Shown here: positions 26,810 through 55,788 of the stretch, one piece after another
Layout of the letters: each line of letters begins with the position of its first letter
Position numbering within the stretch: position 1 is the stretch's first letter
Assembly (NCBI RefSeq): GCF_052324685.1
Contig: NC_135219.1
Coordinates: forward strand, 25,051,032-25,115,031
Direction of reading: 5' to 3'
DNA length: 64,000 nt
Source: Brachyhypopomus gauderio
Lineage: Eukaryota; Chordata; Actinopteri; Gymnotiformes; Hypopomidae
The notes under the pieces: generated by a model
What the model saw: only the letters and a program-made list of their open reading frames with translations
What the model was told of the DNA's origin: nothing
The model's database searches: none
Position numbers and translations under genes: made by a program

Positions 26810-26835
26810 CTATGCAGTGGGGTCGGTTATCTTGC
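26769..26835 (-). repeat. Duplicated C-terminal/stop segment in copy A 3' UTR
   Basis: The coding end (AAGATAACCGACCCCACTGC) recurs about 47 bases downstream as AAGATAACCAACCCCACT, after the stop. Copies B and C show the same arrangement. Confidence 0.8.
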
Positions 26836-29220
26836 CCATGAAGAGGATGCTCTTGGTACCGTCCTCCACAATGAAGACTAGGAAGGGTCGGTTGAGTTTC
26901 ATGATGTCTGGCAAGGACATTGGCATGATCTCTAGAGTGGTCACAGCTGCTGCTTCAGTGCCCTTCTCATCAACACTGAGTACTGCCTGATGGAGAACCT
27001 GTGGAGAGGTCACACATATGAATGAGGAAAAGGTTTAGATATGTAAGGAAAGTCAAAAACACAGATTGTACCTTCATCTTGTCTGTGCATTCATTCCAAC
27101 TCAGGTTTGTCAAACATGTTACAACATGTGTCCACTAACAACCTAGAATCAGACGGCGGACACAATTGCTGCAAAGAACCACATTTATTCAAATCAGAGG
27201 CGGAACTAACTCCTATAACCTCGACCTTTCCAACACGCACGTTACGAGATCGGCGCGGCATAATAATCACACATACAAAATACAACCTACACAGAAACAC
27301 ACACTGATGTAAAGACAAAGATTACCACTCGGACAACGACAATAAACAAAATCACACATGACCAAATCACAATGTCTAACAGTAATGAACAATTCACACC
27401 GGATCAAATCATAATATTTAACCGAACTAACAACCGAGACATACGAAAACCCTCGCAACACTTAACTAGGTACGAATACACAGCGGGAACAACCATATAG
27501 TACAAGCAAGACCAAGACACATTACAACCAGATCAAAAGGACAGTTACATATAACATAGGAAACTCAACAAGGAACCGAAACGAATCAAAGACGACAGAA
27601 CCGCAACAGACCTTGACACCTTGATACCAGACTGATCACAGAAACCCTAAAATGACACGGAGGCTTGAGAGCGCGACAAAGAACATTAACACCGTGAACC
27701 AACCTACAAAAATAGACCCACAGGGAACACATGAACTCAACCAGACTATATACAAACTCATCAAACCAAATAATTCCAAACAGCTGATAAGGATAACATT
27801 GGGTAGGGATAAAAAAAAGGGGCGTGACGAATCAAAACATCGACGAAAGGGAACAGAGGGAGGGAACAAGGCAAGATACGCACAAAGGGGCGGAGTTAAC
27901 GTTACATCCACTTTCTCCACATACCTTAGAAGCCTTTAGTTTGGTCTCCTCACTGATTCCTGAAAAGTTAGCACTTTCTGAGAATGCATCAACTATTCCC
28001 ATTTCCTTCAGAGTGTCTCCAAGGGATGAGGAAGCAGAGATGGAGAATTTGGGCATATATAGTGTCACAGATCTACAGAGATAAATAGATAATTTTTTAA
28101 TTTTTATTATTGTCAAAACACATTCACTTATTAAATACATACTTTTTTGCTAAAATGAAAACACTGGTGACTAAAATTACCTTCTGACAACATTGTCATG
28201 CCAATACTTTAGGTGAACCTTACAGATGTCTTTTTCCACCTCCTCCATTTTTCCTTCATCAGGCAGAATAATCATCATAGAGGTATTTCCTTTATATGGG
28301 ACCATGATGACAGAGGTGAAGTTATTCCAGTCATGGAAGAATTTGTATCGTCCAGTTCGCTTCATCATCTCCACAGTTACTTTTGTATCCCCATCCACAT
28401 GGAAGTCAGCTTTGTGAGTGTTCTTCACTTGAAAAGGCTTCACCCATTTACCTTAGAGAATGGTATTTAAGACTTGTTACTGTAGTTTTTGTGAAACACA
28501 AAGAAAGCATTAAAACATTTGTGGATTCTATTTAGATGCTATACCTCTGAAATATATATAGTTGATAAGCATCATCAGAGTGTCTTGGTCTAGATCCTTG
28601 ACCATGTCAGTGATCATATCCTTGGTCTTTTTGGCAATAAATTTGTTGACCTCTTGCACGGCCACGTCTGGTTTGCTAAAGTCCACACTAAAGGCTTCTC
28701 CATGGTAGAAGTGCTGAGCATCCTTCAGAAACTTCTCTACAGGCTTAAACCCTTCTCGCACTGCAACGGCACTTCCTGCCTCCAGCAGCATGGAGTCCTG
28801 GCTATGGGTCAGCATGTGGAGTAGGTGCTCATAGCCTTCATTGACCTGATCGGGTGTGAGGGTACTGTAGCCCAGGGTGCTGAACATTTGTGAGTGGGTC
28901 TCACCCTTGGCTCCCAGGGCCAGCATGGACAGAGCCATGGAGATGCTGAGTGGGGAGAAAAAGATATTCTTGCCTTTTGCATCAGGCTGGCTGACCAGCT
29001 TTTTATAGAGGGAGAAAGCAAAGTCAGTATTGTGAGGTGAGAGTCTGTGGCAGGAATCCTCTCCTCCATCGTGGTGAGGGTGGGGTTCATCTTTGCCATG
29101 GTGAAGATGTTTATGGTGATCTGCTGAATGATCTCCATGATCATGCCCCTCATGTTGGTCACCCCAGGCCACTGTCAGCAGCAGGGCAACTGTCAAACAC
29201 CACTGGACCTTCCCCCACAT
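26810..29220 (-). CDS. serpina1: Alpha-1-antitrypsin-like serpin, copy A
   Basis: A secreted serine-protease inhibitor of the serpin A clade. Coding exons are 29220-28545, 28451-28181, 28072-27925 and 26998-26810, with GT-AG junctions in matching phase. They total 1284 bases and 427 residues, near the usual 418-430. The start Met opens a signal peptide (MWGKVQWCLTVALLLTVAWG), followed by a histidine-rich segment and the serpin fold beginning DFAFSLYKKL. The hinge GTEAAAVTT leads to a loop ending LEIMPM/SLPD. Alignment to human antitrypsin puts Met at P1, as in the elastase inhibitor. The C-terminus LFMGKITDPTA is typical. N-glycosylation sequons NFT, NTS and NFS are present. It is probably liver-expressed. 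Intron 4 carries a solo LTR close to the donor. The frame is intact. Confidence 0.95.
27136..27906 (-). mobile_element. Solo LTR in intron 4 of serpin copy A, TSD TCCAC
   Basis: A 771-base insert reading TGTAACGTTAACTCCGCCCC from its minus-strand start. TCCAC lies exactly on both sides (27131-27135 and 27907-27911). The 5-base duplication, TG start and absence of coding sequence indicate an LTR left after recombination, although the far end reads TTA rather than CA. Copies B and C have no such insert. Confidence 0.8.
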
Positions 29221-31302
29221 TTTATCACCTGCAGAAAGAGTGCCATATTGATTCTGTGTTGAATGGTATTGGATTTCTGATACTGCACTTTCAAATCAAA
29301 TAATTGATTAGAAATTGGAGTCATACATAATACCTACACAGTTTTTAGTAGTAATAATGGAGAATTGTTTTGTTTGTCACTTAGAATCATACCAAAATTT
29401 TTGAACATGTCTATAATTGTTGTGTTCCTCTGTTTGATTCTGTGTTTGTATTGTGTGTCTGTTTTGTACATATTACTCACTTGTGTCTCAAGAATGGACA
29501 CACACACACACACACACACACACATTGCTTAACAACAGAATCAAATAGAAAATCCAATCATTCAGTCCAGCCAATTTTTATTAACTTTATATTGTTATAA
29601 AATATTAACTTTATTATGTCACATGATAGCTGCACCTGTTAGGCACTGAAGGATTCCTTTGCTCAAATGAAACTTATATGAGTGAAAACTGCAACATTAA
29701 GCAGGCCAGGTTATATGTAAGAGCAGATGTTCCCAACCTTTCACAACTCACTGTCCACTAAACATACCACAAAAATTCAGCTGCCCACATGAAAATGTAA
29801 TCATCCATTTACAATTGAATCAAATACAGCACAATAAAGTAGCCTAACAAATTTTGAATGCATAATCAGACAACAACAAAAAAACACATTTCCTTCATTT
29901 TGGTTTAAGCTTGGTTTGCTCAGTCAGGGATTCAGTTGCCGATTCCCTTTGGCCCGAGAATCGCAGTGGCCCCAGAATCTTTCGCTGTGAAAGATCCTGT
30001 TTTTAACTATTTACCCATGTTGAGAATAATTCACTCAAGGTGACACTAATTAACTGGTAATATGGTTTCTCAGTCAATTTTACAGTTCCAGTCCAATAAA
30101 TGAGCTCAACCTAAATATTTTATTTTTGCAAATCATTTATGTAATATCAGTTATAACTAATATTACATTTTATTCAATATTTATGTATATTTAAAGGATT
30201 TCAGTTTGCATAACAGAATAAAGAAAATCTTTTGACCAATGACCCCCTAGCAGTACAACTAAAACCCACTGGGAGGCCATGGATCAAATGTTGAAAACCA
30301 TTGTTAGTGTAAAGAATATACCTAGGACACTTAGGATATCTAGTTTTCTACTGTGAGATGTTTAAGCTCTGTTTGCTTTCTTTTTATCCATTGAGAATAG
30401 TGAGACAATCTCATAATTGTATCATCTGCATGTTTTCATTATAATATTGTATGTTTCTATAATGTCATTCAAAGTTAATTTAACAGAATACATAATGAAT
30501 AATAAATAGATAATGAAGTGACTACTGCAGTATTTATAGAGACCTGGAGGTTCAGAAGTGCTGGAGTCCACAGTTTGGTGGTACAGCTCCTCAAACAAAC
30601 ATGCTAACCTTGGTTATTACTTGATGAGTTCAATGAAGAGTTTTTGAGCAGCAACCAAACAGTGCTGGACTCTAACCCTACAGGAGCAGGACATCTCCTG
30701 AGTAGACTCAGTAGGTTTGATTTTTAGAATCAATAGTTGATTTATAAAAAGCAATAAAATGTATCATTTTGATAGTCATATGTTAGGAGGTTTATTTATG
30801 CTACATATCAATTAGTTATAGACCTACCAGTAAAAAGCGTGGGAACTGCCATCTCGACAGATTATATATTTTTTATAAATCTGCAGTTTTCTGTTTGCAA
30901 TATCTTAGCACATTAAACACTAACCAGATTTATATTCATGGAAGAATATTGCATGTGTAATAATTGTGACAGTAAAACATAGTTTAATGTACTATACTAT
31001 GATTTGGACAGAGAAACAAGTGTTAAATATATACCAAAGGTGTTAGTTTCATTTTAACCAAATCTTTGAATATATTTTTACTTGTTGGAAAAATAAATGT
31101 TACAATGTTTTTTAAAAGGTGAAATTTACCAGGGCCATACAGGAAATGTAGATTCTACAACATTTGCATAAATCTGAATTAAAAAAAAATCACATACCAC
31201 TGTAATAAATTGTAACATAATTTTAACATAACATTTAACATAATTTTTGAATTTTCTGAAATTGTAGATGTGTTTAGGTCTTCAAAATTTTTGCATTTTG
31301 AA
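29221..31302. other. Intron 1 of copy A (inferred)
   Basis: About 2.1 kb between the first coding exon and the predicted non-coding exon 1. It is AT-rich, with (AC)n at 29499-29523. A stretch at about 29722-30306 (GTTCCCAACCTTTC to AAATGTTGAAAACCATTG) may be an eroded hAT, but its ends were not proven. Confidence 0.6.
29499..29523. repeat. (AC)n microsatellite
   Basis: About 12 AC units. Confidence 0.9.
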
Positions 31303-31395
31303 ATACTTACCATCTGTGTCTTCCCAGCAGAAGTAAGGATTGAATTAAATCATTTTATAAGAAATGACTGAGGTAAATATTTGAAACATTAACCA
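31303..31395 (-). promoter_or_regulatory. serpina1: Copy A core promoter and non-coding exon 1
   Basis: On the minus strand, GGTTAATGTTTC (31394-31383) resembles the HNF1 site of antitrypsin promoters. A TATA box (TATAAAATG, 31359-31351) follows. About 40 bases on comes a splice donor, GATG/GTAAGTAT at 31311/31310. The same order occurs upstream of copies B and C. The transcription start is inferred at about 31325-31330. Confidence 0.75.
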
Positions 31396-31619
31396 ATTCC
31401 CAGCCCACTTTCTGTGAAGCCATAGTTCATGCGCTGACTAGATAAAATGATGCAACATGTCATTGAATTGTATTGTTACTACGTTGGTAGAAATCTTATG
31501 AATGCAAAATCTTAATAATGAAATGACTCGATAAGGAGTTCTAAGCATGTCTCATTCTATTAAAAAAACTACTCAGTTGGGTTTATTAAATCACTATTAT
31601 GAGTAAATCATTGTGTCAT

Positions 31620-32350
31620 TGTGGGCTCCACCACCTCCTGTCAATCTAATTACGTGTCTTTGTAGGCCCGCCTCCTTGTGTCATCGGTCTTCGTTTTGGT
31701 AGCCACGCCCCCTTGTCTCAGCTGTACCGTGTTTGTATTATGTGTGGTATTTAGTCTCTGTGTTCATAAGGGTTGGTGCGGGTCAAAAGTTGTGTGTTTC
31801 ATGAACTGCGTACGCTGTAGAAATATCCAAGGTATATCTAAGCAATGTTGAAAACAAATGTTTGAGAATTATTTGTGTGTTTCCTGATTTGAGAAACACT
31901 GAAGTATTGTTGGAAGTATTGGAGACTTGATGGAAGTCAAAATTGAGTAATGTTTGGCCAATGTTGTTAGTAAGGTTGGATCCTATGTTTATAATATGCT
32001 TGACAGTATTTATGGTATGTTGTATTTATGATCGTGTTATGATATTTCCTCTGTGTCTCCTTGACTTCCCTTGTCTATACTGTTAATGTGTTCATGAGTG
32101 TTCAGTTAAAGTTTACCCTGTGTGTATTGTTATCCTGGATGTTAGTGTCTTGGTTTCATTAATCTTAGTTTGGTTTAGTAAGTCCTGGTTTAATATAAAT
32201 ATATTGAGTTTATTCTGTCCTACCCTCTTATTACGTGGATTAGTTGTTCTTGGTGTAAGTGTGTTTACTAGCTGTTATGCCTGGTAAGTCTCATGCTCTA
32301 CGAGACTGGCTCTCTTCAGCAAGTGTGTCCACCCCAGTTATTGTGCAACA
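31620..32350 (+). mobile_element. LTR-like sequence
   Basis: It begins TGTGGGCTCCACCACCTCCT, contains GCCCGCC and CACGCCCCC motifs like other LTRs here, and could end GTTATTGTGCAACA. No target duplication was found, so the limits are uncertain. Confidence 0.4.
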
Positions 32351-32949
32351 CCCCCCACGTTACACACTGTCCATCCACAAAACAGAATCATCCTGCATGT
32401 TCCCATTAAATTCATATTCTGATCTTTTCCTTACTTTCTAGTTACTTGTATATCAGTATGAATGTATATCACTCCTTTAGTTTTATGATGGTATTATGTA
32501 GTCTAGGTAGTCTTGTTGAAATGTTGGCCATCAATTAAATTTCATCTCATGGCATATTTGTGGGTAATGCAACTTGCTACAATGCTGCTCAAGATGCAGG
32601 CAAGTAGATTTAGCATTAGCATTAGGGCTAGCGTGAGCATTAGGTTTTAGGCTTGGGATGATACAAGGGCATGAGGAATAATGGAAATGTGTTTAAATAT
32701 TTGACTTCTTGGCCTTTTAAAAGGTACATTTTCTACACATGCTAGCTGACTTACAACAAAGAATACTAATATATGGGTTAGCAATGGTATTGAATTATTA
32801 GAAACCAATAAGTTTCTCGGGGGACTTTGATTTTGTTTTGAGAGCAAATTACTTGTTAATGGCATTCTTGCACTTAAGTGTCATTCAGTTAGAAATTACA
32901 TATGTAGACAAAAACATTTGTTATATGACCAAATAGTAAGAATATAACA

Positions 32950-33760
32950 TGCTGGAGCAGAAGTGTGATGGGGATGGAGTGTAATAAAAGGAGGTGGTCA
33001 TGCCAGTCTCAGGGAAAATGGAGGTTTTAATGAGTAAAGTGCACAAACCCAAAACCCGTGAACTAATCCAAATTAAAGATACAATAACCAGCAGTCAACT
33101 GGTACATAAACAAGACATATATAGACAAACAAACAAACACTCACTACATTCTATATTCACCGTTTTGGCAGGCATGACATAAATCAAAGAAATTATAATA
33201 CAATTACAACACAAAGTACAAATACCCTTTCCCCACTACCTCACCAGCTTCTCCGCCAACCTCTCACACATGTATACATACAAATATACATGCAAACACA
33301 CAACATCCTGATGTATGACCATACGTCATGGTACATCTAGGCTAATCTTAACATCAGGATCGCAAGTGCAAGTGTATACTTATTAATAACACTAACAAGA
33401 ACACACACACATCATACAAGGACCAATCAAGTACAACTAATGATAACCACCAAGCAGCACTAGTGTCATGTTTAGCTCCGCCCCCACCTGTCAATCTAAG
33501 GTTTTGTTTTGCACTCCTGTCTGTCATTTTCTTGTTTTGGATTTTCATGTGTTTTTAGTCTGCCATGGCCCGTCATCCATATCCTGCCCTTGGTTAGTGT
33601 TCAGCTGTCTTGATTACTTGCTTTTTTAGTCTGTGTATTTAATCCCTGTGTTTGCTCATTTTTGTTGTTAGTTATTGTAAGTACTTGTGCTTTGTGTGTG
33701 TGCTACTTTCTTCCTGCTCATGTTTCAATCTATGAAAGAGGCCCTGCTAATTTGGTGATT
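32950..33760. mobile_element. LTR-like fragments
   Basis: From about 33464 the sequence TGTCATGTTTAGCTCCGCCC resembles the start of other LTRs in the window. It fades out after about 33720. The preceding 500 bases look like reverse-oriented repeat sequence. No ends were fixed. Confidence 0.35.
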
Positions 33761-34963
33761 AAATCCTAAATCCAATTCATAGCCAAGAGCTAAAATGTTT
33801 GCCTGTGTTAAAAACATGGTGTAAATCAAAAAACAAGACTTTGGCCAGACTGTGGGCCTGTTTCAAGTGTTCATACATGTTATTGATCATAATGAGCAGT
33901 GGCCTCCAGCCATCTAGCTTTGAGACAACCTAAAATGGGTCAACATGAGTTAAAAAGCTAAAGGTCCATGGCTAGATTTTACAAATTGGAAATGGAATTG
34001 ATATTAGGGCAAAAGGATGATAATAATGTATCTCTTTTGATCTGCTATTCTTGCACACTGACGCCATGACATCATGCCAAGAACATAGACGGATTAATAC
34101 GTAATAGTAGCAGCATTCAGGAATGGAGTACTTGGCAACATGCTTTAGCCTTTAGCCTTTAGGATAAATGCAGTAAAAAGAAAATATTTAGCAAAAAAAA
34201 CAAACAATTGGTTGCTCATGCTCATGTCTCAAAAGGCTTTGTGAGCGGGGTCTGAATAATGTTCACTGTAGATTTGAAAAGGCAAAAGGAAATGTTTTAT
34301 TATGGACAGTGGACCACATGCACTTTGGTCCATGTTTACACTGCTCCACATATTATTATATCAACTGTATGATTAGGTCCAAACCATGACTTTGAATATA
34401 AAATAATCATTATACAAGACTGAATGCTATTTCTCCTTATATGTTAATTGCATCTACAAATTTTGTATTTGTTTACTACTTTTGATTTATTCTGATTGAG
34501 TGCCACAGACACAGGCAGTGGAATATAGGCCCTCAGGAATATGACTGACCATATTCACACTATTTGTTTTCTCATAAAGCAGGCAAGTGGCTGTTTCCAA
34601 CAGTCTGTTTACATTTCACCTGTTTTGAATATGTTAAACTGCATGTTATAGCTAAAGAGTGGTCATTTGTTTCCTGTAGGGATATTTATTGATATTGCAG
34701 TAAACTATTGGTCCACCGAAGTTGTGTAATCTGCAAATCTACAACCTTTAGAACCTTGACCAATAGGTCATTGTAACAGCAGACGTTAATATATAGAGGA
34801 ATCAGCAGTGAGTGAAAGTGCACAGCTTTGAAGGGTGTTTGTTCTCATAGAGAGGAATCCAGTCAGGAGGGCGTTCAGGCACACATAATGCCTACTACAT
34901 TCCAAAAAATCTGAAATCACTTGTTGGGGATGTGGGTAAGCTTAATATAGACTAAAGATGAAT
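33761..34963. other. Intergenic sequence, nothing recognised
   Basis: No ORF of interest or repeat boundary. Confidence 0.45.
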
Positions 34964-34968
34964 ATGAT

Positions 34969-35482
34969 TGTCACATAGGGCTATGCCCCCTCTCCTAGCT
35001 GTCACTCCGGTTTCTCGTGTTTGTGTTGTTCCCTGCTCCTTGATCCCATCCTGCTTGTCTGTCTCCATGGTTTCCCCTTGTCTGCCACACCCTTGTCATC
35101 AATGTTTCCAGCTGTGTCTGTTTAAGTTCAATGCATTTATAGTCCCCGTGTCTCCCATGTCGGTTGTCGGTTATTTTGTTCAAACCTGTTCCGTGTGATC
35201 GCTGCCATATGTACATTCATGTTCCTTGTCATCGTTGCCGTTTGTGAGTTTGCTCCTTTGTGTTTTCCGTTATCTGTGTGTTTTGCTCATCCCTTCGTAG
35301 TTACCCTGCCTTGTTGTTTTCGTTCCCCTTAGTATGCCCGTGTACATTTCATGTTCGCACTGCCTGCCTGTTATGACCCCTGCCTATGATTACGACTCTG
35401 CCTGTGGGATTCCTGTTAATAAATCTCGCTCTCCTCAGCGTTTGTGTCCGCGTGCATGCTCTGTAGCGTGCAGATCGTTACA
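34969..35482 (+). mobile_element. Solo LTR, TSD ATGAT
   Basis: A 514-base unit starting TGTCACATAGGGCTATGCCC and ending GCAGATCGTTACA, flanked by ATGAT at 34964-34968 and 35483-35487. It is the same family as the LTRs of the element at 38138-39988 (shared start and GCTGTCACTCCGGTTTC), but in the opposite orientation. Confidence 0.93.
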
Positions 35483-36734: not shown

Positions 36735-36736
36735 TA

Positions 36737-37789: not shown

Positions 37790-38137
37790 GGGGAATATTA
37801 GCTGAAGGCTTGATTAAACAGGTGAGTCTTAAGTCTAGATTTAAAGATTGGAACTGTCAGAATCTCGGATTGGAGCTGGAAGGCTATTCCATAATTGAGG
37901 AGCCTTAAAGGAGAAAGCTCTGCCTCTGGCTGTAGTCTTATAAATTTTCGGAACTCTGAAAAATCCAGCATTTCGTGAGTGCAAAAGGTGAGATGGGTTG
38001 TAGTAAGCAATGAGATCACTCAGATATTGTGGGGAAAGACCATTTAATGCCTAATAGATTAACAGAAGAATTTTAAATTCAATTTGATATTTAATCGGAA
38101 GCCAGTGTAATGCCGCGAGAGTGGGACTAATATGATC

Positions 38138-39412
38138 TGTAATGTTTGACGCATTGCAGCGCATGGAGGCAGACACAAACACTGAGGAGAGTGAGATTTA
38201 TTCAAGGGAATTCCATATTCAAGGTCATGATAACAGGCAGAGGTCATAACAGGCAGGCAGTCCGAACAAGACAGATACATGGGCATACTGACACAGAAAC
38301 TAAACAAGGCAGGGAAAGGCAGAACAGGCAGGAACAAACAGAGCAGACTCTCCAAACGACATAACAAAAGGCAAGAGGGCACAGATGAGCACAATGCAAA
38401 AGAGTACAAGATCGCTAATAGACATGAGACACAAAACAACCGATAACGACATGGGAAACACAGGTACTATAAGTAGCTCTTATAGCTACTTATAGCGCTT
38501 GAGGCGCTGAGGCAGAACAAGACACAGCTGGAACCACTGTCGACATGGGCGTGGCAGACAGAGGAAACCATAGAAACAAACAACAAACCGGGATAAACGA
38601 GCAGGGAATAACACAGACACGAGGAACAGGGAAACCGGAGTGACAGCTAGGAGAGGGGGGCATAGCCCTACGTGACAGTACCCCCTCCTCTAAGCGTGCC
38701 ACTCCGGGGCATGCAAAGGCGGACAGGGGAGCAGACTAGGACAAGACAGGGAACCACAGGGCATGGCGAGAGACAGCAGACACAGGACAGGACATCCCAG
38801 GACAGACAGGAGGGACAGGATTGGGCAAAACAGGGCATGGAGACTGGAGCATTTGCGAGACAGGAGACGTGGAGACTGGCCAGGAGCTAGACGGGGACAT
38901 GACTTCATAAACAGGACCAGGGCGAGGTATGGGAGCAGGGCTCAGCAAGACAGGACTGGAAGCAGACACGGGAGTGGGGCCAGGAAACAGGGCTGAGGCT
39001 AACACAGAGGCAAATACACTATGGACAATGGACACCGGAACAGGAACAAAGTGGGTCACAATCAGGGGAACAGACATGGGGACAGGAACCGAGATGACAC
39101 CACTGGACACAAACACGGGAACAGGCAACCACCCCCTCTGGGTCGCAGGAACAGGAACCGGCGATGATCCTTTCTGGGTCACGGGAACAGGAACTGGCGA
39201 CGACCCCCTCTGGGTCGCGGGAACAGGAGGCTGAGGTAATGAGACGTCCTTGGGGGGCGGGACCGCCGAACTGATGTCCTCAGGGGTGGAGCCGCCAAGC
39301 CGATGTCCTCGGGGGGCAGGACCGCCAATCTGACATCCTCGGGAGGTGGGACCGCCAAGCCGACGTCTTCGGGAGGCTGAGCCAGCCACTCTTAAGGGGA
39401 GTGGCCACTACT

Positions 39413-39443
<31 letters not shown>

Positions 39444-39988
39444 TCTTGCTCCCTCGCTGTGTCCATGTATGATCGGTTGTTATGTAACACTTGATGCATT
39501 GCAGAGCATGGAGGCGGACACAAACGCAGAGGAAAGCAAGATTTATTCAAGGGAATTTCATATTTGAGGTCGTGATAACAGGCAGGGGTCATAACTGGCA
39601 GGCAGTTCGAACAAGACAGATACATGTGCATACTGACACAGAAACTAAACAAGGCAGGGAAACGTGGAACAGGCAGGAACAAACAGAGCAGACTCTCCAA
39701 ACGACATAACAAAAGGCACGAGGGCACAGATGAGCACAATGCAAAAGAGTACAAGATTGCTAATAGACATGAGACACAAAACAACCGAAAACGACATGGG
39801 AAACACAGGGACTATAAGTACACAGAACTAACAAGACACAGCTGGAAACACTGACGACACAGGCATGGCAGACGGGAAACCATAGAAACAGACAAACAAG
39901 GTGGGGTCAACGAGCAGGGAACAACAGACACGAGGAACAGGGAAACCGGAGTGACAGCTAGGAGAGGGGGGCGTAGCCTTACGTGTCA
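38138..39988 (-). mobile_element. Non-autonomous LTR retrotransposon, TSD TGATC
   Basis: The LTRs are 39478-39988 (5' in element sense) and 38138-38677. Both are TG...CA bounded and similar, sharing GCATTGCAG, ATTTATTCAAGGGAATT and GGCAGGCAG blocks. TGATC flanks the whole element (38133-38137 and 39989-39993), and the LINE continues across. A polypurine tract (AGAGGAGGGGG) just before the 3' LTR on the minus strand sets the orientation. The interior is only about 0.8 kb and encodes no RT or integrase, so mobilisation would need proteins in trans. Confidence 0.92.
38736..39389 (-). CDS. Proline/valine-rich ORF inside non-autonomous LTR element
   Basis: An open frame of 217 codons fills most of the interior of the LTR element. 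It is rich in Pro, Val and Ser, with short repeats such as SSPVPVPVTQKG and SSPVPVPATQRG, preceded by GGP/GGS repeats. It has no zinc knuckle, protease or RT motif. It could be a degenerate gag, or open by chance from repeat structure. No function can be assigned. Confidence 0.3.
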   Translation of the reverse strand: MAGSASRRRRLGGPTSRGCQIGGPAPRGHRLGGSTPEDISSAVPPPKDVSLPQPPVPATQRGSSPVPVPVTQKGSSPVPVPATQRGWLPVPVFVSSGVISVPVPMSVPLIVTHFVPVPVSIVHSVFASVLASALFPGPTPVSASSPVLLSPAPIPRPGPVYEVMSPSSSWPVSTSPVSQMLQSPCPVLPNPVPPVCPGMSCPVSAVSRHALWFPVLS

Positions 39989-39989
39989 T

Positions 39990-40871
39990 GATCAAATTTT
40001 CTAGCTTTAGATAGGACTCTAGCTGCAGCATTTTGTACAAGTCTTTATGGACTGTTTAGAGCATCCAATTAGAAGATCATTACAGTAGTCAAATCTTGAT
40101 GAGACAAAAGCATGGACCAGCTTCTCTGCTAATGAAAGTAAGTGTCTCAGCTTGGCAATATTATGTAAATGGAAAAAGGCAGCCTTAGTGACTGCGTGTC
40201 AAATGAAAGATCCGAATCAAAAGTGACACCTAAGCTTTTTGCGATTATTGAAATACCATCTAGGGCAGAGGTCACTAACAGGCGGAACGCAGTCCTGTCC
40301 GGACCCAATCTCATTCCTGATTAACTTTGCAAATTTCTATTTCCGTGGTCCGCAACCAACGGACCTCGGTCCGGATACGAACCCAAATGCCATCCCATCC
40401 GGACCCAGAATTTAATTTTGACGGGCATTTATTTCAGGGCTATTGAAAAAACACTCCGTCACGAGTGTTCACACACGCCCCTGACTATCATCTGCATAGT
40501 AATGAAAGCTAATACCATGCCTATGAATGATAGTGCCCAGCATATATCATGGAAATATGGAGCCCATATTTTACCTTAGAACGGTCTGAGCATTCATTAT
40601 TTACTAGAACAAATTAGTAATTAGTAGTTAACTAGAACAAAATCTGTCAGGTAGGACCTGAACCATGAGTGTGCTTGACCTCTTATACCAATGAGTGTCT
40701 CCAGCCTATTAAGTAGAATATTATGATCAATGGTGTCAAAAGCAGCACTGAGGTCTAGCAGTATGAGAAAAGAAATGTGTCATTTATCAGAGGATATTAA
40801 GAGATTGTTCAGTACTTTAGTAAATGCTGTTTCTGTGCTGTGATGGGGTCTAAATCCAGACTGAAATAACT
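39990..40871 (-). pseudogene. LINE RT, C-terminal decayed part
   Basis: The LINE continues from the RT frame at 41450-40872, with stops and the hAT-like scrap at 40267-40480. Conserved nucleotide blocks match the copies at 20415 and 24720. Confidence 0.6.
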
Positions 40872-43371: not shown

Positions 43372-43998
43372 AATACATTTACGGCATTTAGCAGACGCTC
43401 TTATCCAGAGCGACTTACAAAGTGCTTTGCATCTGATCACAGAATTCATCCTAGGAAATAGTACAGATAGGCCAGAATTCAATATACCATTGAGTCAGAC
43501 TACTACTAAACTACAGGAGTCAATGTCATTACCTAGTGTTTTGCAAGTTAGACATTTGCCAAGAAGCACAAATAACCATAGACAGACATACAATTTAAGA
43601 ACAACGGCAAGTGTTATCAGCTGAGTTAGAGCTCTGGTAAGAACTCAACAAACAGGTGGGTCTTCAATCTACGCTTTAAGATAGCAATAGACTCTGCAGT
43701 CCTAGCTGCTAATGGAAGATCGTTCCACCATCTTGGAGCCAGGACGGAGAATAGTCTGGAGCTTTGTCAGCATCAGTGTGTGAGACTGAGGGGGCAGTCG
43801 TGGCCTGGCGGTTAGGGAACTGGTCTTGTGACTGGAGGGTCGTGGGTTCGATTCCCAGACCTGAGGCCATGACTGAGGTGCCCCTGAGCAAGGCCCTTAA
43901 CCCTCAATTGTTCACTTGTATAAAAAAAAAATGAGATAAAAATATAAGTCGCTCTGGATAAGGGTGTCTGCCAAATGCCATAAAATGTAAATGTAAAT
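43372..43998. mobile_element. LINE-tail and SINE insert within the 3' LTR
   Basis: The left part (to about 43785) is an inverted L2-type tail beginning GGCATTTAGCAGACGCTCTT. The right part is a tRNA-derived SINE with a similar tail in plus orientation. Comparison with the clean LTR at 46077 shows that the block is inserted. Confidence 0.8.
43791..43998 (+). mobile_element. tRNA-derived SINE with L2-type tail
   Basis: The tRNA-like head contains A-box TGGCCTGGCGGTTAGGG and B-box GGTTCGATTCC for RNA polymerase III. After the body comes the tail AAGTCGCTCTGGATAAGGGT then GTCTGCCAAATGCC, ending in ATGTAAATG repeats. This fits fish V-SINE-type elements mobilised by L2 LINEs. Confidence 0.88.
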
Positions 43999-46620: not shown

Positions 46621-46745
46621 AATGTATGGGAGGTGTTTCCAGTATGCAGTGGGGTTGGTTATCTTGACTGTGAGGTAGACATCTAGCACTATCCAGTGAG
46701 GTTGATATCTTGACTGTGGGGGAGTTTAGCACTATGCAGTGGGGT
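46621..46745 (-). repeat. Triplicated C-terminal/stop segment in copy B 3' UTR
   Basis: After the stop, the segment ending the coding exon recurs twice in diverged form (around 46720-46695 and 46690-46650): GTCAAGATATCAACCTCACT, then GTCAAGATAACCAACCCCAC. Copies A and C have one extra unit. Confidence 0.75.
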
Positions 46746-48592
46746 CGGTTATCTTGCCCATGAAGAGGATGCTCTTGGTACTGTCCTCCACAATGAAGAC
46801 TAGGAAGGGTCTGTTGACATACACCCTGAATGGCATTGAGAAGAGCATAATTTCAACTGTGGTCACAGCTGCTGCTTCAGTGCCCTGCTCATCAACACTG
46901 AGGACTGCTTGGTGGAGAACCTGTGGAGGTAAATTGATCAATCTTTATCTGATCTCTGCTTTCATGGCTACTCAGGATTAAACAGATTAAAATAAATCAT
47001 ATTATCTTGCAGATGCTGTAATGTTTTCTTGCATGCTGTTTACTAAATATTTATGCCTGTAATCAGAATATTTAGCATTTTAATTTGTACCATATTAGTA
47101 ATAGTTTTAGAATGTTAAATGCACCAGAACAATTGTTTTTAATCTATTTTTAAACCATTGGCTTCCATGTATTCCATACAATTGTAATGATATTACAGCA
47201 TATTTTTTATTGAATTGCTACTTCAGATACCTTGGACACCGCCACGTTGGACGCCTCACTGATTCCTGAAAAGTTAGCATTTTGTGAGAATGCATCAACT
47301 ATTCCCATTTCCTTCAGAGTGTCTCCAAGTGATGAGGAAGCAGAGATGGAGAACTTGGGCATATACAGGTCTGCATTCATAGATCTGGAGAAAAGATATC
47401 TCTGAGTTTAAAAAGCACTCATGTTGAAATGCATTAAGTCAAGAGTTTTTAGAACATTTGCAAGAGATAAAAGGTTTGTGATGTGATAGTCAAATGTTAA
47501 TATTTGTAAGTGAACGTTTGTTTCATATGGAAGGAAACAGATATATGACCTTCTAAGGAGTTTGTCATGCCAGAACTTGAAGTGGTCCTTGGACATTTGG
47601 TTTTCCACCTCCTCCATTTTACCTTCATCAGGTAAGATGATAATCATAGATGCATTTCCTTTATATTGCATTTTGATGATAGAGGTGTAGTTAGTCCGGT
47701 CATAGTAGTAATTATATTTGCCATTTCTAGACATCATGTCCACAGTCACCTTGGTGTTTTCATCCACGTGGAAGTCAGCTTTGTGTGTGCGCTCCACTTT
47801 AAAAGGATCTTGCCATTTACCTTAAAGGATGGAATTCAAAGATTGTTAATGACATTTAGGTGAAATATCTGTAAAATCTTTTAATCACTGGTAAATTTCT
47901 TAAGTGCCTACTATACCTTTAAAATATATATAGTTGATAAGCATCATCAGAGTGTCTTGGTCTAGATCCTTGACCATGTCAGTGATCATATCCTTGGTCT
48001 TTTTGGCAATAAATTTGTTGACCTCTTGCACGGCCACGTCTGGTTTGCTAAAGTCCACACTAAAGGCTTCTCCATGGTAGAAGTGCTGAGCATCCTTCAG
48101 AAACTTCTCTACAGGCTTAAACCCTTCTCGCACTGCAACGGCACTTCCTGCCTCCAGCAGCATGGAGTCCTGGCTATGGGTCAGCATGTGGAGTAGGTGC
48201 TCATAGCCTTCATTGACCTGATCGGGTGTGAGGGTACTGTAGCCCAGGGTGCTGAACATTTGTGAGTGGGTCTCACCCTTGGCTCCCAGGGCCAGCATGG
48301 ACAGAGCCATGGAGATGCTGAGTGGGGAGAAAAAGATATTCTTGCCTTTTGCATCAGGCTGGCTGACCAGCTTTTTATAGAGGGAGAAAGCAAAGTCAGC
48401 ACTGTGAGGTGAGAGTCTGTGGCAGGAATCCTCTCCTCCATCGTGGTGAGGGTGGGGTTCATCTTTGCCATGGTGAAGATGTTTATGGTGATCTGCTGAA
48501 TGATCTCCATGATCATGCCCCTCATGTTGGTCACCCCAGGCCACTGTCAGCAGCAGGGCAACTGTCAAACACCACTGGACCTTTCCCCACAT
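46732..48592 (-). CDS. serpina1: Alpha-1-antitrypsin-like serpin, copy B (altered reactive loop)
   Basis: Coding exons 48592-47917, 47820-47550, 47384-47231 and 46920-46732, all GT-AG and in phase; 1290 bases, 429 residues. Signal peptide, histidine-rich segment and first exon are almost identical to copies A and C. Exon 2 of the coding set is quite diverged (KWQDPFKVERTHKADF, YNYYYDRTNYTSIIKMQYKG). The hinge GTEAAAVTT is intact, so inhibition is expected. The loop reads VEIMLF/SMPFRVYV. By alignment to human antitrypsin, P1 is Phe, which should favour chymotrypsin- or cathepsin G-like enzymes over elastase. The third coding exon has two extra codons at its start compared with copy A (SMNADLYMPK). 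Expressed function is inferred, not shown. Confidence 0.95.
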
Positions 48593-49062
48593 TTTATCAC
48601 CTGAAGAAGGACTGTACTGATCTAAAATTAGAACTACATGTGAGTAATTCTCAGTACAGTGTTATTTTATAAAGGAATTAAAGTAATATAAATAAGAAAC
48701 ATCTACAACACAATGTATGCAGGGATAGATATTTCTTAAAGTACTCTAAGCTTTAGGTTTCTATTTGTTATATACTTCTAAGATATAATGAATGTACTGA
48801 TCTAAATTTGTAATCACACTTGTATATTGTATGTTGTATTTTGTATATTTTATATATCTTTACACATGATAAAAATATATAAATACACAAAACATTTACA
48901 AGATACTTAATTTGATATAGATTATAGAATATAGATTTTAAAACTAAATAATTAACTGAAAAATTAAGGTTAGTGACTTTTAAAAGCAAATTTTGAAAAC
49001 AGCAGTAACCAAAATCATTTTAATCTTTACTGTTTCAAATTTGCAGATATCTTATGGTATAT
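48593..49062. other. Intron 1 of copy B (inferred)
   Basis: The 70 bases next to the coding exon are the same as in copy C and unlike copy A. The rest is AT-rich. Confidence 0.65.
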
Positions 49063-49170
49063 TTACTTACCACCAGCACCCTGTCAGTAGAAGACTGTTG
49101 GAATTGAGTTAATTTCTTTCATTTTATAGTGTCGGAGCTGTCAGCTGAGTACACTCCTTCAAACATTAAC
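49063..49170 (-). promoter_or_regulatory. serpina1: Copy B core promoter and non-coding exon 1
   Basis: On the minus strand: GTTAATGTTTGA (49170-49159, HNF1-like), TATAAAATG (49128-49120), then a short exon ending GCTGGTG/GTAAGTAA at about 49071/49070. The layout matches copies A and C. Confidence 0.75.
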
Positions 49171-51142
49171 TATCTAGCCAGCACGGCATTATGTGAAGTC
49201 ATATACAGTGTAATGCTACAACATTCTATAATATTAGACAATGGATAAAAAGATTAAATTATACTATACCAATTTAGTGTAACAACTAATATCTCACAAT
49301 TTTGCTGCCTTACATGATGATGCATCACAGATGTATGATAAAATTATATTTAAAACACTCTATGCCCCTGTTTGCTTCAGGATCAATTGTATTGATATCT
49401 GTATTGATTCTTTGTTCAAGTGTTTATTATCATCCAGCAGCCATCTCTAACATAATAATGAGTTAAAATATTAACAGTGGTAAGGGGAGATAACTAAAAA
49501 AAGTCAAATGTATATATAAGAAACACAGAAAGATATACATAAAATATACATACATGTAACAGACCAGGCAGAGGTGGATCCAACTGTGGAACAGCATTGC
49601 CTTTATTCAACAAGAAACAATTGCCTGAAGTGACTAACACAAAGCACAAACAGTAGCATGGAACACAGCAGTATTACATGGAATTTGGGGCCGGTCCAGA
49701 GGGGCCAGAGGAGCAGAGTCCGGGAGTTACAGGAGGACTAGACATGGTACAAGGTCTAGGAAGGAGGCAGAGGTCAGAGCACGGGTAGACAATCAGGCAG
49801 AGAGAATGCTTGGTATGCGGCTGTAGAAATATATTATTTGATTATGAGTAATTATAAGGGGCAGCACCCTTAAATTTCATTGAAATATGTATTTGATAAC
49901 TGGAATAGATAAAATTGATATATCAGTCTCATTAACGAAGGTGAAGCTCAGAGTCTGTGCAGTGACCCAATACCACTGGTTGCAATATATTTGACACAGT
50001 AATTGGTTTAATGAATAAATGCTAATTTTATTGATCAATAGATATCAGCAATTTAACATTATAATGCATACAACGCATAAGGTTGAATCGGAGGAAGGAC
50101 AAACCAACTGAATTTAAACTATGAAGCAGAAACCTCCACAGACCATTTAAACCAATGTTAACCAACCCAATGTTTTATATCTATTCTTAGCTAGTTATGC
50201 AATGTAAGCTACGAACTCAGGAACGGGGGGGGTGCGAGAACGCTATTATGCATGAGCACCTGCAACTGTAAACAGTTGCTCAAAAGAGGGAATATTTGTT
50301 ATGTGTATTGAACTAGGGCATTTTATTATGTGGGCAGGGCCGGCGCCAGAACATATACAGTGAGAGGGCGTCAGAAAATTTCGGGGGGCGAACGTAAGTT
50401 GTTGAGCTGGGGGGGGGGGGGGGGGGGGGGGGGGGGCTGTGTGCATGTAACGATTGTCAAGCGTTGTCAAAATAGCATGGGTTTATTTTGCACAGTTACT
50501 TCCGTTTAGTTCCTTATGTTTCTATGTTTGCTCTTCATTGTTAGTTTCCTAATCCTCTACAGTTTGTTTCTTCGTATCGCTTATGTCTCCCTGTCACTTG
50601 TGTTTTCTGTGTTTTGTGCTTCCCTTCATATCTATTACATTCTCTTTACTTTCATTAGTCTTCTGCAAAATTAGCTGCCCTATTAACTAAAACTCTCATC
50701 AGCACACCAAAGTACACACTTACGCTACCAATACAACTTAAAATATTTTCTGCACAACATACATTCATGTGGAAACAAAATTAACATGTTAAATGAGCGA
50801 AAATAAATATAATGTTGCAGAGACGAACTGGGTTGCCAACTCTCACGCATTGAGCGTGAGACACACGCATTTGACCGTCTTCACACGCTCTCACGCCACA
50901 CATCCACGCCGAAAAAAAATCTAGTTTATTTACCTCTGATCCACATCTATGATTCAATGAGTTACTAGTTCGCTCTGGTGCCACCCACTGGCAATCGATT
51001 GCGATATAATACTTACCCCCCCACCCCCACCCCGTAACAATTTACGTTCGCAGAAACTCACGAAACACAACCAGGAATAACGTTTCCACATTCAGTTACC
51101 AGCCCTGAACAAGACAAAGAACAGGGATTAAATACACTGGAT
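49171..51142. other. Intergenic sequence between copies B and C
   Basis: It contains LTR-like sequence at about 49559-49830, a poly-G tract of about 27 at 50410-50436 next to GGCCGGCGCCAGAAC (a likely transposon end), and a hAT-family fragment at about 50820-51060 that repeats sequence found near 51640-51850. No gene is seen. Confidence 0.55.
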
Positions 51143-51906
51143 CAGTGGTTCTCAAACTGTGGTACACGTACCACTGGTGGTACGCAGAGCACCCCGCGGT
51201 GGTACGCCAGATGAACTCGGAAAATAAAAGATGCTTTGAGGTTTTTTTTTTTTTTACACAACACATTTTTTTTTATTAAAACAGAATTATGACAAGTGCT
51301 GAAATTCAGAAACTAAAAGGGATTACTCGTATTATGTGCGGAGAAAATGTCGCTAAACAGTTCGACCTGGTGCATCTTTCAAACGACACGGTCACTCGCA
51401 GAATTGATGAAATGGTGGACAACGTCAGACAAACATTGACCGAGAGAATTAAAATGAGTAAATGCTTCTCACTGCAGTTAGATGAATCCCTAGATGTCGC
51501 AGATTTAGCCAACTTGCTCGTTTACGTGCGATATGAGTATGAGGGCATGTCGCACGAAGACTTTTTGTGCTGTAAACCAACCACTACCAACACGAACTAC
51601 AGGAGAACTACATTATAACATATGTGTGTAATGAGCAGGGTTGCCAAATGCGTGAAACACACGCATTTGACCGTCTTCACACGCCACACATCCGATTTCT
51701 CACGTCGACAAAAAAAAAATCTAGTTTATTTACCTCTGATCCACATCTATGATTCAATGAGTTACTAGTTCGCTCTGGCGCCAACCATCGTGATATAGCC
51801 TAATACTTAATTCGTGTCTATTTTACATCCTCCCGGTAACAATTTACATTCGCCCCCCCGCCCCCCCCGTCAACAACTTAAACTTGCCAAACAGCTTTTT
51901 CTTTTT

Positions 51907-51937
<31 letters not shown>

Positions 51938-52016
51938 GGGGGGGTAGTAGGTGGTACGTGGAGGTTTTTCGTTTGACAGTTGGTGGTACTTTGTCTAAAA
52001 AGTTTGAGAACCACTG
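51143..52016 (+). mobile_element. hAT transposon, TSD CACTGGAT
   Basis: The ends are CAGTGGTTCTCAAACTGTGG and the inverted AAAGTTTGAGAACCACTG, with exact duplication CACTGGAT at 51135-51142 and 52017-52024. It is the same family as 18506-19447 in the opposite orientation, and likewise has a poly-G tract (about 51917-51944). Confidence 0.93.
51289..51618 (+). pseudogene. hAT transposase remnant
   Basis: An open frame of 109 codons: IMCGENVAKQFDLVHLSNDT then CFSLQLDESLDVADLANLLV. It is the sister of the fragment at 18763. The part between EIQKLK and GITRIMCGEN is deleted relative to that copy, and the C-terminal half is missing. Confidence 0.78.
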
Positions 52017-52024
52017 CACTGGAT

Positions 52025-53636
52025 TAACAAGGGAAACAGTTGCTTTAGCAACCATTACAGTAGCATTCCAAAGGTGGTAAAGAGACCATTGCAATAGCTC
52101 AGCCTGAATGAAACATAGGTATGCATAAGTTTGTCTAGTCATGTCTACACATTTGATTTCTAATTTTTGCTATGGTGGAAGGCTTATTTTTTTATTGCTG
52201 TAAGATGGCTGATAAATCACAGATCACAGAGTCCATTATTATCCCAAGATTTTCCACTTGGTCTTTGCAATTAGTAGATGGGACTGAGCTGCAGGAATAG
52301 TTGCCTGAAGAAATGTCATTTTCAGTTATAGGAGGCTCTAGTGAACCTCCAGGCATATACATATGGAGCAGTCTATGGTAGCTCTCCCTCATGTGAGTAC
52401 CCATGTGAATTAGCTACATGTGACTAAGCCTTGTAGTGTTTCCAAGGGCCACTGTACTTCAAATACCTCTATCTGACCATTTCAACTGACACAATTCCAG
52501 TGAGAAGGCGCTCAGCTCTTAGTTGTGCTCTTTCTGCTAACTTCTACTGCTCCTTGGTCACAGGAACGCTACTAGCATCCTCCAGTCGTACCAGTGTTCT
52601 GCTATCGCTTCTTTTTGCTGGACTATTACTGTCACTAGAAGTGAAAATAAAATTCTACTTTTAACATAAGTGTTGCTTCCCAGTGGAAGACCACTCAGTG
52701 AGACAGGAAATTATTTCTGAATACGATTTTATTTCTGAATATGATTTTAACAACTGGTTAAAATGAGAGTAAATGGCTCTGTGGTAACCCCTTATGTAAA
52801 TGAATGTTAATGTGGTGAGTGTGGATGCAGGGTGAAAAACCTTTTAATCTGCCATGATGCAACACATTATGTAACTCCCGCTGACCTTCAATTAACCTTT
52901 GGGGAATTAACAGTTTTTGATCTTATCACCTTCGGAAAATAGGGAATCTCTGCTTACATAAGTGAAATTGGAGAATGTGAGATTTCTGTGATTTACTGTG
53001 AGAATGTGTTCTACATTCTTAGTTTTATGTCCTAATCTCAGGTTGTTAATGTTACCGGATGATATTAATTTTGGACAAAACAACAACAATAATAATACAT
53101 TAGATTTATATAGCACCTTTTACAGAAGAGCTTAAGGACACTTAAGAGTATATAAATATTAAAAATGTTATTTTTACAAGATGCTTAATGTCATGCGCCA
53201 GGTGTGTGTTTGTTTGTTTACCCAGGTTTGAAGAATATTCCAGTTCCACAGAACTTCACTAGCCCATGTGTTAGATGAAACATTAAGATGTATGGCAAAC
53301 AGGGCTAATGTCATAACTTACACCATTGCTATTATAGAATGTTACAATTGGCATACCATAACAAATTAAGGGACATTCATTTCAATTCATAAATATTTCT
53401 TACTACTTACGTGTAATCAAAATTATTTGTTTATTAATACTTCCATTAATGCATGTACTGAATACAGCTATATTTTCCTCAGTGAAGACATTCTGTAAAC
53501 CCTCTTGCTGGCAAAACATTGAACTTTTGGTTCTGTTTATAGGATTAAAATGACAGTTTGCTGTTAAGTGAAATGAGTGTAGTTCATTAGCACACAGATT
53601 GACTGCTACACTGTGAGGGAGACATTTTCCACTATT
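52025..53636. other. Intergenic sequence 3' of copy C
   Basis: No gene is recognised. A short repeat tail at about 53083-53160 (ATTAGATTTATATAGCACCT) resembles fish SINE/LINE 3' sequence. Confidence 0.5.
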
Positions 53637-53683
53637 CAGTGGGGTCGGTTATCTTGACTGTGAGGTAGACATCTAGCACTATG
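53637..53683 (-). repeat. Duplicated C-terminal/stop segment in copy C 3' UTR
   Basis: The second unit reads GTCAAGATAACCGACCCCAC, even closer to the coding version than in copy A. Confidence 0.75.
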
Positions 53684-55788
53684 CAGTGGGGTCGGTTATC
53701 TTGCCCATGAAGAGGATGCTCTTGGTACTGTCCTCCACAATGAAGACTAGGAAGGGTCGGTTGAGATTCATGATGTCTGGCAAGGACATTGGCATGATCT
53801 CTAGAGTGGTCACAGCTGCTGCTTCAGTGCCCTTCTCATCAACCTTGAGGACTGCCTGATGGAGAACCTGTGGAGAGGTCACACATATGAATGAGTTGAG
53901 CTTACCACACTCTAAAGGGTTATCTTCATGATTATAATACCTGACAAAACTTATTGATCTTTTTCAAGTTTCTGAATTCATATCTAATCTAATCTTTTTA
54001 TCAACCTTCATTTTATATTACCAGACTAAAATAAATATATGTATATCATATATATAACAGTAATTATTAATAATTAGTAGTTAAAGCTTTACAATGCTAT
54101 ATATGTAAAAAAAAAAAAAAAGAAAAGTAAGGCAATGGTTTAAATTGTGCACAAAGATTAGGGAAAATTTGTTTATGCAAATATGGCACCGATCCAAATG
54201 TTGCATCTGTCTACATTTTCACTACATATGGACAGTGTCTTAACAAATTATCAGTATCATATCTCTGTAAATGAAGGTAAAAGACTAATGCCTATCTTGA
54301 AATTGCACTCATTATTACTGTCTTCAAAAGGTGCTACCGTGACATTACAAAACATCTCCTGAGAATGAGTTTAGTTTCTTCTCATACCTTGGAAACTGCC
54401 ACTTTGCTCTCACTGATTCCAGAGAAATCTGCACTATCTGAAAATGCATGAACTATTCCCATTTCCTTTAGAGTGTTTCCAAGGGATGATGAGGCAGAGA
54501 TGGAGAATTTGGGCATATACAGGTCTATGTTGCTGGCAAAGAGAGAACAGACATTGGACAGAATTTTAACATTGAATGGTGTAACCTCAAACTTTTAGGG
54601 CCAGTTTTACATTTTACATCAGAGTGACATTTTATGTTAGAATATACACATAAAAACACATTACCTTCTGAAGAGTTTGTCATGCCAGTACTTAAGGTGG
54701 TGCTGACATATGGTTTTTTCCACCTCCTCCATCTTTCCCTCGTCAGGTAGAATGATCATCATGGATGTGTTTCCTTTGTATGGTACCATGATGATGGAAG
54801 TGAAATTATCTCGATCCTGGTAGAAGTCATACCGACCGGTTCTTTTCATCATGTCTACAGACACCTTTGTCTTCTCATCCACACTGAAGATAGCTTTGTG
54901 AGTGTTTTCCACTTCAAAAGGCTTCTCCCACTTACCTGAAAGGATACAATTTAGAGTATTGTTAATGCACATATAACATTAACAATCCTCTACAGAAAAC
55001 ATAAAAATATATACATAAAAAGGTAATAAAACACTGGATAAAAGCATTAAAACACTTGTAGATTACACATACATTGTGTGGAAATACATAAATACCTCTG
55101 ACTATGTATTACCTCTGAAATATATATAGTTGATAAGCATCATCAGAGTGTCTTGGTCTAGATCCTTGACCATGTCAGTGATCATATCCTTGGTCTTTTT
55201 GGCAATAAATTTGTTGACCTCTTGCACGGCCACGTCTGGTTTGCTAAAGTCCACACTAAAGGCTTCTCCATGGTAGAAGTGCTGAGCATCCTTCAGAAAC
55301 TTCTCTACAGGCTTAAACCCTTCTCGCACTGCAACGGCACTTCCTGCCTCCAGCAGCATAGAGTCCTGGCTATGGGTCAGCATGTGGAGTAGGTGCTCAT
55401 AGCCTTCATTGACCTGATCGGGTGTGAGGGTACTGTAGCCCAGGGTGCTGAACATTTGTGAGTGGGTCTCACCCTTGGCTCCCAGGGCCAGCATGGACAG
55501 AGCCATGGAGATGCTGAGTGGGGAGAAAAAGATATTCTTGCCTTCTGCATCAGGCTGGCTGACCAGCTTTTTATAGAGGGAGAAAGCAAAGTCAGCATTG
55601 TGAGGTGAGAGTCTGTGGCAGGAATCCTCTCCTCCATCGTGGTGAGGGTGGGGTTCATCTTTGCCATGGTGAAGATGTTTATGATGATCTGCTGAATGAT
55701 CTCCATGATCATGCCCCTCATGTTGGTCACCCCAGGCCACTGTCAGCAGCAGGGCAACTGTCAAACACCACTGGACCTTCCCCCACAT
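53679..55788 (-). CDS. serpina1: Alpha-1-antitrypsin-like serpin, copy C
   Basis: Coding exons 55788-55113, 54935-54665, 54532-54388 and 53867-53679, GT-AG and in phase; 1281 bases, 426 residues. Signal peptide, histidine-rich stretch and first coding exon are nearly identical to A and B (PDAEG for PDAKG is one of few changes). The second coding exon is distinctive (KWEKPFEVENTHKAIFSVDE, YDFYQDRDNFTS). The loop is GTEAAAVTT...LEIMPM/SLPDIMNLN, so P1 is Met, as in copy A and human antitrypsin. The third coding exon starts SNIDLYMPK and is three codons shorter overall than in copy B. The NFS sequon of A and B is DFS here. The frame is intact. Confidence 0.95.

Follow-up and report, generated by a model that had tools for sequence, protein, structure and literature searches.

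How can three neighbouring genes be almost identical in one exon and strongly different in the next? This question is raised by an array of SERPINA1-like serpin genes in the gymnotiform fish Brachyhypopomus gauderio, found in a window of 64,000 nucleotides (nt), which is the whole stretch of DNA that was analysed (assembly GCF_052324685.1, contig NC_135219.1, positions 25,051,032 to 25,115,031; positions below are counted from its first letter). Three genes, designated A, B, and C, lie on the minus strand in the transcription order C, B, A, from the ATG of gene C at 55788 to the stop codon of gene A, which ends at 26810. Each contains four coding exons (exons 2 to 5; 676, 271, 145–154, and 189 nt). 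Exon 2 of all three genes and exon 5 of A and C have been homogenised recently, whereas exon 3 is old. Very probably, the best explanation is that these are three old tandem paralogs in which nonallelic gene conversion has acted repeatedly within exon-sized islands of homology.

Silent divergence provides the basis for this conclusion. The first coding exon (exon 2; 28545–29220 in gene A, 47917–48592 in gene B, and 55113–55788 in gene C) is flanked by AG/GT splice borders in each gene. An earlier reading of this DNA from its letters (the sequence-only reading) had claimed that this exon is 676 nt long and nearly identical in the three copies, silent sites included, and this is what was found: over the 226 codons starting in exon 2, only 5, 4, and 7 of 678 nt differ in the A/B, A/C, and B/C comparisons, with synonymous divergence (dS, Nei-Gojobori method, NG86) of 0.014, 0.014, and 0.029, respectively. 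The next exon had been described as diverged, and indeed exon 3 (28181–28451 in A, 47550–47820 in B, and 54665–54935 in C; 271 nt each) differs at 66, 59, and 73 of 270 nt, with dS values of 0.85, 1.31, and 1.54. Silent divergence is thus ~50- to 90-fold higher in exon 3 than in exon 2 of the same genes; equal divergence among exons, which the silent-distance check proposed in that reading could have revealed, was not seen. Fourfold-degenerate sites gave the same contrast, with differences at 1/94 sites in exon 2 vs 5/17 in exon 3 for A/B (Fisher p 2.6e-4), 1/94 vs 12/23 for A/C (p 2.1e-9), and 2/95 vs 9/18 for B/C (p 3.8e-7). The longest identical runs in the coding alignment were 478, 251, and 242 bp, which 0 of 2000 column shuffles per pair could match (largest 154). 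Since the ratio of nonsynonymous divergence (dN) to dS in exon 3 is ~0.11–0.25 and its silent sites are nearly saturated, exon 3 reflects the true age of the copies and exon 2 has recently been replaced. Local silent identity between otherwise old paralogs, by which nonallelic gene conversion is recognised, is therefore present in this array.

Exon 5 (26810–26998 to the stop codon in A, 46732–46920 in B, and 53679–53867 in C; 189 nt) is also converted between A and C, whose dS is 0.023 (0.28 for A/B and 0.25 for B/C). In exon 4 (27925–28072, 148 nt, in A; 47231–47384, 154 nt, in B; 54388–54532, 145 nt, in C), dS is 0.22 for A/B vs 0.61 for A/C and 0.56 for B/C, and the middle part of the gene A exon is B-like by site pattern, so that a part of this exon was probably converted between A and B. 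Exon 5 of gene B is a mosaic: a block of 16 codons in the reactive loop is old (dS 1.26, dN 0.41–0.45), the last 25 codons, which follow it, are homogenised (dS 0), and the preceding 21 codons show a dS of 0.21–0.30. The A/B differences cluster in this 48-nt block (20 sites vs 5/141 elsewhere in exon 5; Fisher p 7.6e-10), the limits of which were set after the alignment had been seen. The loop reads EIMPM-S in A and C (LEIMPM-S in A) and EIMLF-S in B (VEIMLF-S). By alignment to an antitrypsin-loop chain, gene B has Phe at P1, where A and C have Met, and its protease targets are predicted to differ from those of A and C.

Such a mosaic could imply that conversion hit all exons and that selection purged the events overwriting exon 3 and, above all, the reactive loop, since these erase inhibitor specificity; the outcome would be a uniform N-terminal half beside protected, variable C-terminal modules. 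This idea would refine the conversion model rather than replace it. The old loop block of gene B next to silent identity, the packing of A/B differences within it, and the different P1 residue would fit this idea. On the other hand, A and C have one loop and one exon 5, so loops are sometimes overwritten; exon 3, which does not contain the loop, is equally old, and its dN/dS gives no exon-wide sign of diversifying selection. Moreover, the limits of the block were chosen with the alignment in view, and a diverged block can halt a conversion tract without selection. We therefore treat selection-shaped conversion as a tentative possibility and lean against it.

The edges of the tracts bear on the question of which molecule served as the donor. 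On the 3' side of exon 2, A/C identity continues 3 nt beyond the donor site, and gene B, otherwise homogenised, has two mismatches to A and C within the last 5 nt of the exon; the sequence-only reading had likewise placed the fall in similarity at or just past this splice site. On the 5' side, gene A is identical to both B and C for 11 nt before the ATG, of which 8 belong to the 5' untranslated region (UTR), followed by merely acceptor-like similarity, whereas B and C share 67 identical nt, 59 of them in intron 1 (the extensions noted earlier, ~15 and ~70 bases, were right within about 10 bases). The edges of the exon 2 tract in A/B and A/C lie no more than about 5 nt from the splice sites. 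The segment common to B and C, covering the 5'UTR end of exon 2 and the end of intron 1 (48593–48792 in B and 55789–56037 in C), continues beyond these 67 nt as an older tract with ~9% divergence (12/133 aligned nt) and then becomes unalignable up to the promoter region, which suggests two layered events, an older one reaching deeper into intron 1 and a younger one. Around exon 5, A and C remain identical over the adjoining 28 nt of intron 4 and over 32 nt after the stop codon. The introns are otherwise almost unalignable among the three genes: introns 2 and 4 retain only short traces of similarity, and similarity in intron 3 did not exceed that of shuffles in any of the three pairs. A short-word search of 17 kb upstream of gene A for a promoter resembling that of B and C found only matches of 10–15 nt.

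Edges lying almost exactly at both splice sites of exon 2 in gene A are what replacement via a reverse-transcribed mRNA (complementary DNA, cDNA) would produce. However, a full-length cDNA donor should often bring exon 3 as well, yet exon 3 is old, and intron sequence lies inside the B/C exon 2 and A/C exon 5 tracts (not in that of gene A exon 2), so at least those tracts arose at the DNA level. Taken over all tracts, conversion mediated by cDNA is therefore very unlikely, although it might apply to exon 2 of gene A. An assembly collapse, or a consensus copied into exon 2, was also considered, as near-identical 676 bp tandem copies can defeat assemblers and a single assembly lies behind the data. 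The copies nevertheless differ pairwise at 4–7 sites, the extent of the tract varies by pair, B and C carry the older, 9% diverged shell, and the protein pattern recurs in other species (see below), which leaves this explanation scarcely credible.

The favoured model is repeated nonallelic gene conversion between three old tandem SERPINA1-like paralogs, presumably in the course of double-strand-break repair. With introns near-unalignable, conversion would be confined to exon-sized islands of homology and would end at or near splice sites, as the edges suggest. Exon 2, by far the longest island (676 bp vs 271, 145–154, and 189), may have been overwritten most often if island length sets the rate; exon 5 and part of exon 4 would have been overwritten at times, and exon 3 and the reactive loop of gene B would have kept their old differences. 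The genes would then encode inhibitors that share their N-terminal half and differ in the C-terminal, protease-facing half, with a possible effect on specificity. The sequence-only reading had proposed recent conversion with a boundary near the exon edge. Silent distances, run tests, and tract edges support that proposal, but its picture was incomplete, as it omitted exon 5 of A and C, the probable A/B part of exon 4, the unconverted loop block of gene B, and matching proteins in other ostariophysans.

The pattern in other fishes was examined by comparing protein sequences. Two protein searches scored 7991 and 7990 candidates, of which the best 120 of each were considered, in a database clustered at 90% identity, which therefore hides near-identical paralogs. 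From the 133 proteins of both searches, 92 plus gene A were chosen by hand for mismatch-ratio and change-point analyses. This selection omitted many isoforms, near-identical copies, and species with one copy but retained the fused model P0057 and two proteins labelled partial, P0060 and P0077; some rows are annotated isoforms, and Tful_10 and Tful_111 may be one annotated locus. Two or more rows were available for 19 species, reduced to 18 by the exon 3–5 difference cut-off, under which Carassius gibelio fell. Of the 120 proteins in the first search, 64 plus gene A were used for the within-species, exon-by-exon comparison of paralogs, and 46 sequences were placed in trees.

Between species, the ratio of protein mismatches in exons 3–5 to those in exon 2 had a median of 1.10 over all species (3586 pairs) and 1.37 among ostariophysans (1812 pairs; 97.5% limit 2.89). 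Exon 2 thus evolves nearly as fast as exons 3–5 between species, and constraint therefore fails to explain its likeness within them. Within species, the ratio exceeded 2.89 in 34/68 pairs and 9/18 species. These nine (Brachyhypopomus, Colossoma, Tachysurus, Prochilodus, Pygocentrus, Metynnis, Hoplias, Astyanax, and Chanos) all belong to the 14 ostariophysans examined. Three of six pairs exceeded it in Brachyhypopomus gauderio (maximum 13.7) and 10/15 in Chanos (maximum 17.4), and Electrophorus and Trichomycterus exceed the looser all-species limit of 2.44. Among the 19 species examined for change points, 13 had clear ones, and in 8 of these the best single change point lay no more than 6 residues from the exon 2/3 junction (p 2.4e-5 under a uniform expectation). 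Change points near other junctions were found in Neoarius 64/67 (residue 315) and Pygocentrus 17/33 (residue 363). The boundary in the proteins of other species is partly common by descent, and full independence of the species therefore cannot be assumed.

In the exon 2 tree, the Brachyhypopomus trio adjoins the Electrophorus pair 4/28 (support 98), the two together having a support of 99, and the paralogs of Trichomycterus (98), Prochilodus (97), Astyanax (98), Hoplias (100), and Chanos 81–93 (100) likewise cluster by species; the two Clarias genes are not grouped together. In the exon 3–5 tree, Brachyhypopomus C groups with Electrophorus 4 (96) and Colossoma 8 with Pygocentrus 17 (100), along with further cross-genus groups, and the paralogs of Hoplias, Chanos, and Neoarius still group by species. 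For the gymnotiform genes (A, C, and two Electrophorus relatives), species grouping fits exon 2 better and ortholog grouping was rejected by the approximately unbiased (AU) test (p 0.003); in exons 3–5, ortholog grouping was preferred without significance (species grouping p 0.10). In piranhas and pacus, exons 3–5 reject species grouping (AU p 3e-5 and 2e-6), and the paralogs there are therefore old rather than newly duplicated. Conversion may also be the cause of the matching protein pattern in other ostariophysans.

A chimeric origin of gene B with the lineage of a fourth Brachyhypopomus gauderio paralog (P0069, termed D) was also considered, as B and D group together in the exon 3–5 tree (99), and was dropped as a probable long-branch grouping. 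In exon-wise tests, exons 3 and 5 favour B + D without significance and exon 4 opposes it; of the sites fixed for different states, B agrees with A/C at 3/3 in exon 3, 1/1 in exon 4, and 4/5 in exon 5. By tblastn, D matches only A, B, and C in the window, where it has no copy of its own. A footprint of GC-biased conversion was rejected as well: GC content at third codon positions is 0.57–0.58 in exon 2, which is not above that of exon 5 (0.60–0.65) or of exon 3 in gene C (0.58).

These data also address two further explanations. If the genes had duplicated recently and exons 3–5 had then diversified fast, a similar exon 2 would lie beside different exons 3–5, and this may have happened in Chanos and Hoplias, whose paralogs, compared as proteins, group by species in exons 3–5 too; but the near-saturated silent sites of exon 3 and almost unalignable introns in Brachyhypopomus gauderio, together with the grouping of piranha-pacu exons 3–5 by ortholog across genera, make such a history highly improbable as the general explanation. 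Stronger purifying selection on exon 2 by itself would keep its proteins nearly identical, as they are, but it has an almost negligible probability given that silent sites are nearly identical too and that exon 2 differs between species nearly as much as exons 3–5.

Several results weigh against repeated conversion of exon-sized islands, or against its extension to other fishes. Exon 5 (189 nt) is more clearly converted than exon 3 (271 nt), which breaks a pure length rule. All other species were compared at the protein level. The ratio was below 2.89 in 5/14 ostariophysans (Electrophorus, Trichomycterus, Acnodon, Neoarius, and Clarias) and in 4/4 clupeomorphs, and the contrast between the two groups (9/14 vs 0/4) was not significant (Fisher p 0.08). 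Among between-species pairs of similar support, 178/460 also had a change point within 6 residues of a junction. Support for the Brachyhypopomus A, B, and C trio in the exon 2 tree is weak (52), and two piranha-pacu ortholog groups appear there: one joins Colossoma 26, Acnodon 32, and Pygocentrus 33 (94), the other Metynnis 31 and Acnodon 30 (96). The preference of gymnotiform exons 3–4 alone for ortholog grouping (log-likelihood difference 8.4) was not significant (AU p 0.14), nor was that of piranha-pacu exon 2 for species grouping (alternative p 0.10 and 0.19). In Astyanax, exon 2 rejects the alternative to species grouping (p 0.008) and exons 3–5 are not decisive; Prochilodus and Trichomycterus gave no significance in either partition.

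The assignment of the genes to the SERPINA1-like group is based on several features. The top protein matches were annotated alpha-1-antitrypsin homologs of Brachyhypopomus gauderio itself: by sequence identity, P0001 is gene C and P0003 is gene B, and P0002 is an annotated isoform of gene A, the same over 365 residues and without exon 5. Against the Pfam profile PF00079 (cut-off 27), P0001 and P0003 scored 409.8 and 424.4 bits with nearly the entire profile covered, and gene A, scored only as the isoform P0002 without exon 5, reached 324.3 bits. The first two coding introns interrupt codon 226 after base 1 and codon 316 after base 2; the third lies after base 3 of codon 365 in A, and after codon 367 in B and codon 364 in C because of small indels in exon 4. 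According to PMC4476131, the coding introns by which vertebrate group V2 is defined lie at positions 192a, 282b, and 331c of antitrypsin. With query residue 225 aligned to antitrypsin residue 191 (an offset of 34, assumed constant downstream), the introns fall at 192a, 282b, and 331c, which assigns the genes to group V2 (clade A, SERPINA1-like). In inhibitory serpins, the hinge consensus has Glu at P17, Gly at P15, Thr or Ser at P14, and small residues at P12–P9. The translated hinges, EKGTEAAAV in A and C and EQGTEAAAV in B, fit this consensus and would be compatible with inhibitory function. Intron 4 of gene A is 926 nt long (310 in B and 520 in C), and the last exon of isoform P0002 is an alternative one taken out of this intron (26999–27924; exon at 27091–27168), which would give a serpin without a reactive loop.

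No earlier report of exon-2-limited conversion in fish serpins was found in searches of an open-licence full-text library, with subscription papers mostly outside this scope and some queries broader than the topic. Hypervariability of murine serpin loops is known, and the Manduca serpin-1 gene of insects carries alternative reactive-loop exons chosen by alternative splicing. The latter similarly joins a common N-terminal body to variable C-terminal loop exons, but within one gene and by splicing, whereas the fish array consists of separate genes and involves conversion of DNA. Mammalian tandem SERPINA1 and SERPINA3 arrays resemble the fish array in belonging to clade A, in intron positions, in tandem copies, and in reactive-loop variation. 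In a passage of a study of serpin duplicates and snake venom, recombination breakpoints were placed at nt 332 and 953 of SERPINA3-like genes, and no evidence of recombination was given there for SERPINA1-like genes (PMC12646145). Between bovine SERPINA3-1 and -3, most differences lie in the loop, and the bovine SERPINA3 genes resemble one another in exons as well as introns (PMC2373789); their divergence is therefore concentrated in the loop of young copies, in contrast to the fish genes, in which exon 2 is the young part and exons 3 and 4 and the introns are old. Exon-level nonallelic gene conversion of toxin-resistance substitutions was described for duplicate exon 26 of newt Nav1.4 (PMC8476164). 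That case likewise involves conversion between tandem copies and homogenisation of substitutions within one exon, but it concerns duplicate toxin-resistance exons, whereas in the fish serpins the N-terminal exon is homogenised and the C-terminal exons stay different.

It is possible, although we consider it rather unlikely, that ostariophysan SERPINA1 arrays form a constant/variable system, in which the N-terminal exon is overwritten lineage after lineage and selection removes conversions of the specificity exons or loop. If so, such an array would retain a tuned common body together with a reservoir of old, diverse target specificities. Serpin evolution is usually described in terms of a conserved body that carries a fast-evolving reactive loop. 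In this array the body is itself divided, with the N-terminal exon evolving in concert and the C-terminal exons retaining long-lived paralog identity. Gene trees and ortholog calls based on whole proteins can thus be misled in these fishes. The array also offers a natural test of whether homology or selection sets tract edges, and a set of natural chimeras that combine a single scaffold with several different protease-facing modules.

Additional features were observed in the window. In genes B (46643–46756) and C (53610–53703), a tandem duplication of the final part of the coding sequence extends into the 3'UTR (units of 43 and 47 nt). An inverted pair of ~700 bp with 84% identity (18496–19156 and 51315–52026), one copy of which lies between B and C, is probably a mobile element. 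The sole Rfam match in the window at the gathering threshold is the 3' element of a UnaL2 long interspersed nuclear element (43378–43431, minus strand), and an open frame at 118–1338 (minus strand) contains Ty3 capsid and retrotransposon gag domains. Another open frame of 372 residues (60772–61890, minus strand), for which no Pfam match was found at E 0.01, is possibly an exon of a neighbouring gene. Finally, the region 38001–40000 shows a strong A-over-T skew (0.42), with GC-rich tandem repeats at 39118–39377.

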